A stretch of 10,106 bases of DNA, from assembly GCA_023380955.1 (NCBI GenBank), contig JAMCTB010000090.1, positions 1 to 10,106 of the forward strand, in the 5' to 3' direction. The stretch is from Chloroflexota bacterium. GTDB taxonomy: Bacteria > Chloroflexota > UBA6077. The position numbers and the translations under genes were made by a program. The notes beneath the pieces were generated by a model that made no database searches, was not told the DNA's origin, and saw only the letters and a program-made list of their open reading frames with translations. Shown here in pieces: positions 7,634-10,030 of the stretch. The first letter of the stretch is position 1. Every line of letters begins with the position of its first letter.

Positions 7634-8944
7634 CTAATCCACGGGGATCCCCATGGGAGCCGGATCCTGCCGGCGATACCTCAGGATCCCCACGCCCGTC
7701 CGGGCCAGCAGCAGCGGCCGCACCGCGGTGCTCCGCACCAACTGCTTGTAGGAGTCCTCCCCCGAGACCATGCCCTGGAACAGGTGGCGCAGCCTCTTCT
7801 CGCGTCCGGCCACCTCGATCACGGCATCCATCCACCCCATCCGGCGGGAGGTGCGGTAGAGCCAGCGCAGGAAGAGGCCGTACTTGTACTCGCTGGTGAT
7901 GTCCCGGCAGCTGCGGTAGAGAGCCTCGAAGGCTCGATCGGAGACCCCTACGTCCATCATGGTGGCCGCTGCCCTCATCCCCATCTGGATACCGGTGTTG
8001 ATCCCCTTCCCTTTCAGCGGCCGCATCAACCCGCTGGCGTTACCGATGGTGACGATCCGATCCTGGGCGAAGTGGCTGGCCGGCCGGGTGGGGAAGAGCT
8101 CGCAGGCCCGGGGTTGGGCCAGATCCGTTCCGGCCAGCATCCTCTGCACCAGGGGGAGCCGCAGGAAGCCGTCGAAGTCATCGTCGTCGATCTCCTCCCC
8201 AGCGGCGTTGACCACCACCCGGTCCCGCTTGGGGGTGAGGGCGCCGAACTCGATGCGGGGCAGGGAAGGGGGGAGGATGGCGTGAACCCGGTTGCCGAAC
8301 CGCTCCTCGATCAGCGGCTCCGCCATGGGGACCTCGATCAGGATCGACCTCATCACCTTCGGCCGGCGGTAGCCCTCCATGCCCGACTCGAAGATCGCCA
8401 TGGCGAAGCGGTTGAGTCCCACCGCCCCCACCACCGCCTGGGCCAGGATCCTGGCCCCCCCGCTGCTCACCACCAGGGCCGTGGAGCGAGAGTAGCGCAG
8501 GTCCACCACCACGTCGTACATCACCTGGACGCCCAGCCGCTCGGCGCTATCCAGCAGGAACTGGTCGAGGTCGGCCCGATGAACCACCAGGGTGGGCTCG
8601 GCGCCCGGCTCGTCGTCCAGCACCAGGGAGCTCTGGTCGGCGTGGAGGACGTAGCCTGTCACCACCCGTTGGATCAGCTCCCTGGGGATCTGCAGCCCCA
8701 ACTGTCCCAGCAGCCGGCCGAAGGGAGGGGAGAGGACGCCGACGCAGACGTTGCTCTCGGCGCGGAAGTCCTTGGCCTCGAAGAGGACGACCTCCAGGTC
8801 GATCCCCCTGGCCTCGGCCAGACGGCGTAGGGCGATGGCGCAGCTGGCGCCGCTGGGGCCGCCGCCGACGATGACCACCCGCTGCCCCGACTTGAGGGGG
8901 CCGAGGTAGACCAGATCCTCTGGAGGGAGGTGGATTACGCCCAT
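7634..8944 (-). CDS. FAD-dependent oxidoreductase, geranylgeranyl-reductase-like
   Basis: A 436-residue flavoprotein. A Rossmann dinucleotide site, V-V-I-V-G-G-G-P-S-G-A, lies at 23-33 with G27, G29 and G32 as the G-x-G-x-x-G. The second FAD motif, I-V-T-I-G-N-A-S-G-L-M with P-L-K-G-K-G-I-N-T-G, lies at about 297-318 and corresponds to the G-D-A-A-G...P-x-x-G-x-G-I segment of the geranylgeranyl reductase family. Members of that family reduce isoprenoid double bonds in lipids, quinone tails or chlorophyll precursors; the substrate here cannot be told. No signal peptide or membrane helix is obvious. ATG 8944 is preceded by AGAAGGG about 10 nt upstream. A promoter at 9023-9051 and a terminator just before it indicate separate transcription from the upstream operon. 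A stem-loop follows the stop. Confidence 0.85.
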   Translation of the reverse strand: MGVIHLPPEDLVYLGPLKSGQRVVIVGGGPSGASCAIALRRLAEARGIDLEVVLFEAKDFRAESNVCVGVLSPPFGRLLGQLGLQIPRELIQRVVTGYVLHADQSSLVLDDEPGAEPTLVVHRADLDQFLLDSAERLGVQVMYDVVVDLRYSRSTALVVSSGGARILAQAVVGAVGLNRFAMAIFESGMEGYRRPKVMRSILIEVPMAEPLIEERFGNRVHAILPPSLPRIEFGALTPKRDRVVVNAAGEEIDDDDFDGFLRLPLVQRMLAGTDLAQPRACELFPTRPASHFAQDRIVTIGNASGLMRPLKGKGINTGIQMGMRAAATMMDVGVSDRAFEALYRSCRDITSEYKYGLFLRWLYRTSRRMGWMDAVIEVAGREKRLRHLFQGMVSGEDSYKQLVRSTAVRPLLLARTGVGILRYRRQDPAPMGIPVD

Positions 8945-9051: not shown

Positions 9052-9062
9052 CGTGACCGCCA

Positions 9063-9079
9063 GCTTCGCACCGCGAAGC
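9063..9079 (-). ncRNA. SECIS-like hairpin after the TGA of the small membrane peptide
   Basis: On the minus strand GCTTCGC (9079-9073) pairs perfectly with GCGAAGC (9069-9063) around a GGT loop. A terminal G-U pair can extend the stem. The loop begins 17 nt after the TGA at 9092-9090. That agrees with the bacterial SECIS model as recalled: loop 16-37 nt after UGA, with a G in the first two loop positions. It has no T tract, so it is not the operon terminator. Confidence 0.4.
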
Positions 9080-9080
9080 C

Positions 9081-9182
9081 TTAGATCCCTCAACCCCCGC
9101 CGCGGCCGCAACTACCGCTGCCGCTTCTCGACATCAGCAGGACGAGGGCCACGAACAGGACGGCCAGGAAAACCACGTCCAT
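9081..9182 (-). CDS. Small single-span membrane peptide, possibly with a near-C-terminal selenocysteine
   Basis: ATG 9182 is preceded by GGGAGGG 7 nt upstream. Residues 3-17 are a hydrophobic helix (V-V-F-L-A-V-L-F-V-A-L-V-L-L-M). A Gly/Ser-rich tail follows with Cys25: S-G-S-G-S-C-G-R-G-G-G. Codon 31 is TGA (9092-9090). If it stops there the product is 30 residues and the gene ends at 9090. If TGA is read as selenocysteine the peptide ends G-G-G-U-G-I at TAA 9083-9081. A membrane helix with a glycine-rich tail and a Sec close to the C terminus recalls eukaryotic SelK and SelS in architecture only. It lies 31 nt after the Sec-thioredoxin candidate and before the terminator, so it is probably the third gene of that operon. 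The gene is fairly likely; Sec insertion is speculative. Confidence 0.5.
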
Positions 9183-9213: not shown

Positions 9214-9567
9214 TCACGATACGACCTGTCCGCTGGATCGGGCCCGCTCGATGGCTTTGGCGACGCTGAAGTAGTCCACGTAGCCCAGGCTCACCATCTC
9301 GTCGTCCACGAAGACGGCGGGCAGGATGAGATCTCCCTTTTGCAGCTTTTCGACGACCTGAGGGAACTGCTGCCGCACCTGAGTCCGCGACAGGTCGCGG
9401 TAGTTCACCTCGACGCTGTTGCCGTATTCCCTGGATAGATACCAGGCGACGATTTGCGTAATCTCTTCCTGAGATTGCGGGGGCCCTCAACCGCTGCTGC
9501 AGAAGCGGGTGCTGGCAGCGTCGTCGAAGACGTCGACGACGTTCCGCCCCTTGTCGTTTGACTCCAT
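9214..9567 (-). CDS. Thioredoxin-fold protein with in-frame TGA, probable selenoprotein (Cys-x-x-x-Sec)
   Basis: ATG 9567 to TGA 9214 gives 117 residues if the TGA at codon 27 (9489-9487) is read as selenocysteine. ATG has GAGG 8 nt upstream and lies 10 bp after the preceding gene. The whole frame makes one thioredoxin-like fold: strand N-V-V-D-V-F-D-D (9-16), redox loop F-C23-S-S-G-U27-G-P-P, helix 33-48, strand V-E-V-N-Y, helix 62-77, then the probable cis-proline strand I-L-P83-A-V-F-V and a final helix 98-112. C23 is the only cysteine, so a redox pair exists only with Sec27. The TGA is followed by a SECIS-like hairpin. The layout resembles small thioredoxin-like families such as YuzD (DUF1462) or ArsD (C-x-x-G-x-C-G-P), without a firm assignment. 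A nonsense mutation or a downstream start at GTG 9408 (64 residues, missing the redox loop) are the alternatives. Confidence 0.72.
9460..9476 (-). ncRNA. SECIS-like hairpin inside the thioredoxin-fold gene
   Basis: On the minus strand AATCTC (9476-9471) pairs perfectly with GAGATT (9465-9460) around loop AGGAA. After one mismatch two more pairs can extend it. The loop begins 16 nt after the in-frame TGA and has G at its second position. Both features agree with the bacterial SECIS model as recalled. Confidence 0.55.
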
Positions 9568-9577
9568 TGAACCTACC

Positions 9578-9985
9578 TCATCTCGATGGGTTGGAGAGCC
9601 GCTGGTGCTCTTTCAGCATGCATCTGTCCATGACACGGTCCCGACCCGCCTGTCTGGCCCTGGCGGCGGCGGCTTCATTGATGATGCCCTCCTGCATCCA
9701 GATCGCTCGAGCCCCCACCTGGATCGCCTCTTCGACCACCGGTGGGACGTCCTCGGGGCGCCGGAAGATGTCCACCACATCGATCTTCTCCGGCACCGAC
9801 TTCAGATCTGGATAGGATTTCTCGCCCAGCACCTGGTCCACGGTGGGGTTGACCGGTATGATCCGGTAGCCCCGCTGCTGCAGGTACTCGGCGACGCCGA
9901 AACTGGGACGATCTGGCTTGGGGGAGAGGCCGACCACGGCGATGGTCCTGGCCTCGCGCAGGATCCTCTCGATGTTTGTCTCCAC
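9578..9985 (-). CDS. CoA-binding domain protein, YccU type
   Basis: A 135-residue protein of the small stand-alone CoA-binding (Rossmann-like) family. It shows the family landmarks in order: A-R-T-I-A-V-V-G-L-S-P-K-P-D-R-P-S at 12-28, G-Y-R-I-I-P-V-N-P, G-E-K-S-Y-P-D-L, D-V-V-D-I-F-R-R-P-E, A-I-W-M-Q-E-G and V-M-D-R-C122. Length is normal for the family. Binding of CoA or acyl-CoA is known for the fold; the physiological role is not. GTG 9985 is chosen because GGAGG lies 5 nt upstream and the promoter start falls about 39 nt before it. A TTG at 10021 is in frame but almost at the transcription start. It is the first gene of the operon with the Sec-thioredoxin candidate. Confidence 0.9.
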   Translation of the reverse strand: METNIERILREARTIAVVGLSPKPDRPSFGVAEYLQQRGYRIIPVNPTVDQVLGEKSYPDLKSVPEKIDVVDIFRRPEDVPPVVEEAIQVGARAIWMQEGIINEAAAARARQAGRDRVMDRCMLKEHQRLSNPSR

Positions 9986-10030
9986 AACAGCCTCCAAGGA
10001 GTTGACAGCTGCACCCCTCAACAGTATCGT

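Follow-up and report, generated by a model that had tools for sequence, protein, structure and literature searches.

A 10,106-nucleotide stretch of DNA from a Chloroflexota bacterium of the UBA6077 lineage (contig JAMCTB010000090.1; hereafter the window) very probably carries one intact selenoprotein gene. This gene is predicted to encode a DUF1462/YuzD-type thioredoxin-fold protein, 117 residues long, with selenocysteine (Sec, U) at codon 27 instead of the second active-site cysteine. Comparison of the sequence with its homologues underlies this assignment. The protein and its relatives are referred to here as the GUGP family, after the G-U-G-P motif around the Sec codon.

The gene lies on the minus strand (Table 1). 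ATG 9567 opens a frame of 26 codons that meets an in-frame TGA (9489-9487), continues for 90 codons and ends at a terminal TGA (9216-9214). Its translation reads MESNDKGRNVVDVFDDAASTRFCSSG-U-GPPQSQEEITQIVAWYLSREYG...SSGQVVS; just past the TGA of codon 27 the frame continues as GPPQSQEEITQ...GQVVS, and the motif around this codon is C-SSG-U-GP. An earlier note on this DNA had described the in-frame TGA without giving a strand, and the observation itself is confirmed. Three more of its statements agree with the present analysis: the TGA falls four residues past the only cysteine (Cys23 is the sole one), a ribosome site precedes the frame (GAGATGAGGTAGGTTCA ahead of ATG 9567 is a plausible one), and a 64-residue open reading frame begins at GTG 9408. 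Rfam and ARAGORN scans of the window gave no matches.

Table 1. Positions of the GUGP gene, its parts, its neighbours and related candidate Sec genes. Positions refer to the window, except where a locus identifier (L) is given.
Feature	Position	Strand	Remarks
GUGP selenoprotein gene (predicted)	9217..9567	minus	117 codons; thioredoxin fold, DUF1462-like; stop TGA 9214-9216
Putative Sec codon TGA, residue 27	9487..9489	minus	homologues: TGA in 33 genomes, Cys in seven
Cys23 codon, presumed partner of Sec27	9499..9501	minus	C-x3-U or C-x4-U in 32/34 TGA forms
Shine-Dalgarno-like GAGGTAGG	9572..9579	minus	upstream of ATG 9567, from sequence
Pro83	9319..9321	minus	sole invariant column of 41-row alignment; precedes model strand 84-87
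SECIS-type hairpin (putative)	9460..9476	minus	arms 9476-9471 and 9465-9460; loop AGGAA 9470-9466
Micropeptide MDVVFLAVLFVALVLLMSRSGSGSCGRGGG-U-GI (candidate)	9084..9182	minus	length 33 residues; by eye, a single membrane segment; TAA stop at 9083-9081
Second candidate Sec codon TGA	9090..9092	minus	frame 9182-9090 ends there; Gly-Ile, then TAA
SECIS-like hairpin of micropeptide gene	9062..9080	minus	8-bp stem; loop GGT, nt 21-23 from T of TGA
CoA_binding_2 gene	9578..10021	minus	directly upstream, separated by 10 nt; G001 and G540 have it upstream too
FAD-dependent oxidoreductase gene	7634..8944	minus	nearest to geranylgeranyl reductase family, below NCBIfam cut-off; next larger gene downstream
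Membrane-anchored Sec-thioredoxin candidates	L067 794-1225; L068 785-1222; L069 785-1222; L076 1855-2277	minus in L076	upstream of GUGP gene
FmdB genes with candidate Sec tail	L067 1232-1447; L068 1228-1443; L069 1228-1443		next upstream of GUGP gene
FmdB genes with candidate Sec tail	L045 4641-4847; L046 5386-5589; L047 5037-5246; also L103, L105	minus in L046

The TGA recurs at the aligned codon in 33 Chloroflexota genomes, which with the window gives 34 sequences, and the family spans three class-level groups of the phylum. Of 400 genomes of the phylum searched with a profile, 11 matched, and nine of these have the TGA. Class-level searches matched 4 of 29, 12 of 158 and 32 of 396 genomes, sets that overlap each other and the 400-genome search. 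When genome contigs were scanned, a single locus emerged, from the Chloroflexi MAG UBA6077 (L001); it too has TGA at this codon, within CAVG-U-GPAQSQEE. Genome G137, L093, L021 (the second paralogue of G082) and seven matches without the motif region (L091, L092, L094-L096 and two others, from the 396-genome search) were excluded from the TGA count. The short form of G151 (L066) was counted and was omitted from structural alignment A6, in which the window protein is 20-57% identical to the 32 other TGA forms.

The excluded loci have features of their own. L014, near position 292 in G137, keeps GUGP, the TGA and the hairpin, with the remainder one base out of frame, as in an assembly frameshift or a decayed copy. 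L093 has TGA where L094-L096 have Trp, and belongs to a separate DUF1462-like subgroup. L021, on the reverse strand, is DUF1462-like with SCGUGSSCGPSCGSDC ahead of the shared domain, and is a possible Sec form.

G-U-G-P is present in 29 of the 34 TGA forms; the others read GUAP (G425 and G525), GURP (G424), GUSP (G600) and AUGA (G151). An upstream cysteine occurs in 32 of the 34, as C-x3-U in 23 and as C-x4-U in nine, and is lacking in G424 and G425. The C-x-x-x-U pairing put forward in the earlier note therefore describes the window and 23 of the 34 forms, but not a fixed spacing. Because the cysteine shifts or is absent, Sec is more constant than its partner, and G-U-G-P is the steadier element of the motif.

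Where genome loci carry another residue at the Sec site, that residue is cysteine in all seven cases: L015 (PCGV), L084 and L085 (RACTP), L086 and L087 (SGCG), and L089 and L090 (TCGP). The last protein search contributed 16 further full-length proteins (P0042-P0057) with a CxxC that ends at the Sec site. Full-length proteins with Cys there also occur in the set that includes the Herpetosiphon-type sequences described below. Homologues had been expected to show TGA or Cys at codon 27, as 33 and seven genomes do, but one protein, P0002, reads Arg. P0002 (CSSRRGP; 61-65% identical) is the sole full-length protein among the 12 returned by the first protein search. It is a single sequence without a listed contig, and its Arg could represent a loss of Sec or an artefact.

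The other 11 proteins of that search are 64-82 residues long, with starts that match positions past the TGA; P0006, included in this count, corresponds to the truncated ORF of the window itself. Among the Herpetosiphon-type proteins, 18 of 19 begin MPS... and P0040 begins further down; in the genome loci the ATG of MPS... sits three codons behind the TGA (GUGPR-M). Judged from these loci and not from the proteins' own DNA, the MPS... starts look like an ORF-calling artefact. The Herpetosiphon entries P0019 and P0027 are such truncated forms. GUGP homologues in the searched protein database are truncated or hypothetical entries, and every match with a printed organism name is from Chloroflexota, most matches being nameless. 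Truncation by conventional annotation had been predicted, and most database homologues do start past the TGA, which is why the family has been overlooked.

Truncated entries would also be expected if the TGA were a genuine stop or arose from a sequencing error, so that the locus is a pseudogene or yields only the 64-residue protein from GTG 9408. In its favor, a conventional gene caller would report a split ORF, every database protein of this type except P0002 is truncated, and P0002 itself encodes Arg where the TGA would stand. This explanation is nevertheless highly improbable given that the same TGA is found in 33 genomes and that Sec and Cys forms occur as pairs. The annotated starts vary by lineage (64, 78-82 and mostly 84-100 residues), as forced choices would. 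Between the window and G001, dN/dS is 0.10 over the 26 codons upstream of the TGA (dS 2.4, saturated) and 0.31 over the 83 codons downstream, so purifying selection acts on both sides. Finally, the TGA forms share a covarying hairpin that the Cys forms lack.

This hairpin, AATCTC-AGGAA-GAGATT in the window, was described beforehand as having a loop 16 nt past the TGA with a G in its first two positions; the loop does begin there, with G second. The 48 nt from the TGA align gap-free across all 34 members, and columns 14-20 pair with columns 24-30 around a loop at 21-23. At this fixed place, which was chosen after the hairpins had been inspected, a stem of 6-9 bp is present in 34 of 34 TGA forms, versus 0-2 bp in seven of seven Cys forms. 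Pairing extends to 95.0% of 238 cells; shuffles reach 85.1%, and sliding the columns by 1-3 lowers the figure to 37-56%. Double changes occur in five of the seven stem pairs (23 cells), and none of 500 shuffles scored as high on four of five covariation measures; on the fifth, further pair types, the alignment was no better than shuffles (383 of 500). RNAalifold recovers the same helix unaided. The stem persists although the peptide differs, with SQEEI in the window's group and MPSLK or MPSVR in the Herpetosiphon group, and protein constraint alone is therefore an insufficient explanation for it.

Randomization of the coding sequence points the same way. Synonymous recoding matches the observed stem in at most 5% of trials for 33 of the 34 members (7.5% for G114), and for the window only 1 of 2000 recodings reaches its stem at the fixed place. 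With the position left free the test is much less telling: 4.7% of recodings are as good for the window and 75% for G420. Among the 214 TGA triplets on both window strands, a stem of at least 6 bp with a loop G at the fixed place follows two only, GUGP codon 27 and one 397 nt downstream. Across the loci retrieved, 10,102 further distinct TGA contexts gave 29 (0.3%) such stems of at least 6 bp, nine of them with at least 8 bp, and from this rate about 0.6 stems would be expected among 214 triplets. Taken singly, the window hairpin is weak. It is not the minimum-energy structure of the 48-nt fold, whose energy is ordinary (z +0.31); it appears in the 40-nt fold and lies within a longer stem in the 46-nt fold. 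The case for a SECIS element therefore rests on comparison, by which all 34 members have a predicted hairpin past the UGA with a G in the apical loop.

Genes for Sec incorporation are widespread among the carriers. selA scores over the cut-off in 29 of the 33 TGA genomes (8 of 9 and 21 of 24 in two scans); no selA reaches it in G030, G419 or G420, and in G506 there is just a fragment, located at the end of a contig. selB is over the cut-off in eight of nine TGA genomes tested, G030 being the exception, and tRNA-Sec exceeds 60 bits in seven of nine, all but G071 and G114. Only scores above 60 bits were counted for tRNA-Sec, a line set after the scores had been viewed, because other tRNAs also draw scores from the model near or below its threshold: all 14 control genomes gave a match, five of them over the cut-off. 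G030 thus has tRNA-Sec and neither selA nor selB over the cut-off, and G071 and G114 show the reverse; missing assembly may account for this patchiness. In the controls, selA is found in 15 of 20 genomes without a family match and in five of seven Cys-form genomes, and of 14 named control genomes, one has selA, two have selB and five have tRNA-Sec over the cut-off. Since selA is common in the phylum, its presence permits the Sec reading and does not single it out.

The UGA could in principle be read through without selenocysteine, with a suppressor tRNA or an altered genetic code placing Trp or Cys there. P0002 shows that another residue occurs, and G071 and G114 are without a tRNA-Sec over the cut-off. 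There is very little probability in this explanation, however, as UGA is still a stop elsewhere and the GUGP gene itself terminates in TGA. The hairpin stands at SECIS distance with a G in its loop, 29 of 33 carriers have selA (G071 and G114 included), and the seven genomes without TGA all encode Cys there. Decoding of codon 27 as Sec is thus the favored reading.

With Cys placed at U, the window protein matches Pfam PF07315 (DUF1462) with 36 bits against a cut-off of 25, over residues 20-107 and across the TGA. The predicted structure (pLDDT 87.1, pTM 0.80) has 1xg8, a DUF1462 structure, as its best PDB match, and Sec aligns with the second Cys of the DUF1462 CxxC; the loop that holds C23 and U27 is modeled with low confidence (mean pLDDT 64, residues 21-30). 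Pro83 is presumably the cis-proline of the thioredoxin fold. In 1xg8, from Staphylococcus aureus, the DUF1462/YuzD motif is CxxC without Sec, whereas the GUGP protein has C-x3-U or C-x4-U, mostly followed by GP. As C-SSG-U is one residue longer than CxxC and has Sec for the second Cys, the family is at most a divergent, Sec-bearing branch of DUF1462. No NCBIfam cut-off (release 20.0) was passed by any of nine proteins, namely the window protein, six other TGA forms, one Cys form and P0002.

The ArsD metallochaperone, whose fold is also thioredoxin-like, is likewise among the structure matches. A selenoprotein of this kind might be an ArsD-type metal(loid)-binding chaperone or regulator, whose selenol and thiol would hold As(III), Hg(II) or a comparable ion. 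Such a role is unlikely, although it deserves more weight than a real stop or simple readthrough. The GUGP protein falls below both curated ArsD cut-offs (19.5 vs 27 bits in Pfam, 17.3 vs 90 in NCBIfam), and DUF1462 outscores ArsD in Pfam and in both structure comparisons. Two members are without the partner Cys, and no ars gene was noticed among the neighbors, several of which are thiol-disulfide enzymes.

A thioredoxin reductase, a protein disulfide oxidoreductase (PDO) or a Sec-thioredoxin candidate lies near the GUGP gene in 10 of the 33 genomes, in flanks of up to about 5 kb in nine genomes, up to 1.5 kb elsewhere and less at contig ends. In the other 23 no such neighbor was recognized in the flanking sequence examined, which mostly extends to 1.5 kb at most, and in the flanks of the Herpetosiphon group no redox partner was recognized by eye. 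The next genes in G030 encode a thioredoxin reductase (372.8 bits, cut-off 343) and a Thioredoxin_3-domain protein that groups with PDO genes; by sequence similarity, G114 has the same two. A thioredoxin-reductase-like gene is located downstream in G001 (228.5 bits, under the cut-off of 343) and upstream in G506. In G514 the GUGP gene is followed by a PDO-type gene (294.3 bits, cut-off 185), and by similarity to the latter such genes also follow in G540, G030, G114 and G082. Upstream in G561, G505, G533 and G506 is a membrane-anchored thioredoxin with SNT-U-SAC or SNT-U-GPC, its domain scanned in two of the four; the hairpin past its TGA does not follow the shared GUGP geometry. On the strength of the redox neighbors in 10 genomes, together with the fold, the GUGP protein would be a selenol disulfide reductase.

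The window TGA located 397 nt downstream of the GUGP Sec codon, which the earlier note's entry on this gene does not list, may be a second Sec codon. It belongs to a micropeptide that ends in GGG-U-GI, and the hairpin that follows it (fold z -2.00) is at the same distance from the TGA as in the GUGP gene. The counterpart in G001, MDILVVAVVFVVLAFLLARGAPGGGG-U-KV, has a 7-bp stem but no Cys and other last residues. FmdB zinc-ribbon proteins in eight relatives end in a similar candidate Sec tail. Six of their genes adjoin the GUGP gene as the next gene upstream, with tails that end in GGST-U-GI (G561, G505, G533), GGG-U-GF (G030, G114) or GGG-U-GI (G082); those of G001 and G020 lie away from it. 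Each tail TGA is followed by a stem of 7-9 bp with the loop starting at nt 22-23, and the FmdB domain scored 62.1 and 64.6 bits against a cut-off of 31.3 in the two copies scanned. Of seven tail hairpins folded, five have z of -1.45 or lower (one exactly -1.45) and two do not (-0.68 and -0.38). The tail pattern GG-U-G-I/F-stop matched 16 times in 400 genomes, versus 10 in a reversed control; five of the 16 are FmdB tails and eleven are chance-like. An earlier run on 61 genomes gave nine matches, the same five FmdB tails and four chance-like ones, with none in the control. Predicted Sec is already on record for this zinc-ribbon family in the GOS study (PMC2398784), there in a CxxU motif (UxxU in Table 1 of PMC13188914), whereas the present tails are Gly-rich and place it at the third position from the C-terminal end.

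The GUGP protein may work as follows. SelB and Sec-tRNA, guided by the hairpin just past the UGA, would insert selenocysteine at codon 27. The selenol would attack a disulfide, a peroxide, or CoA or another low-molecular-weight disulfide; a CoA-type substrate is guessed because a CoA-binding gene adjoins. Cys23 would then resolve the selenenyl-sulfide, and an NADPH-fed chain of thioredoxin reductase and PDO would recycle the protein. The C-terminal Sec tails of the window micropeptide and of FmdB in relatives probably share the same relay. Animal thioredoxin reductase carries a C-terminal GCUG tail, and by analogy the FmdB and micropeptide tails may be mobile selenol arms. Chloroflexota may possess, though the likelihood is put slightly short of even, a multi-selenoprotein redox module in which the soluble GUGP protein and a flexible selenol tail, on an FmdB zinc ribbon or a membrane micropeptide, would shuttle electrons between thioredoxin reductase/PDO and membrane or metal-center targets. 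The tail motif of such a module is typically C-x5-8-U-G-I/F.

Known selenoproteins were compared through PMC13188914 (all of Table 1 and passages of the text) and parts of PMC9312934, PMC12013277, PMC2398784 and PMC3091736. Table 1 of PMC13188914, a 2026 review, covers 119 families and subfamilies and has no DUF1462, ArsD-like or C-x3/4-U-G-P protein. Its thioredoxin-fold selenoproteins (Sec-Trx, SelW-like CxxU, SaoT, Sec.1/Sec.2, UXX-star) share with the GUGP family a redox-loop Sec, Cys homologues and a SECIS right past the UGA, but none of those in the table has C-x(3,4)-U-G-P or DUF1462. A HesB-like selenoprotein has UxGP, but in another domain (TIGR01911). The SAO and Tso operons of Haft and colleagues likewise hold several adjacent selenoprotein genes; by their description in passages of PMC13188914, the genes named there (ABC transport, MerB-like, rhodanese/DsbD) differ from the GUGP neighborhood. 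A full-text literature search for selenoprotein together with DUF1462 found nothing, although Haft and Tolstoy 2025, the nearest in subject, may hold a mention, and wider searches, mostly by title and the start of the abstract, found no paper on the GUGP family. With the reservation that overlap with Haft and Tolstoy 2025 is possible, the GUGP protein is regarded as a new selenoprotein family in Chloroflexota.

The family adds the Sec motif C-x3/4-U-G-P and gives DUF1462 a probable redox chemistry. It also brings further Sec candidates, the micropeptide among them. If the redox module is real, it would be previously undescribed, and the 33-residue micropeptide would be an exceptionally small selenoprotein.
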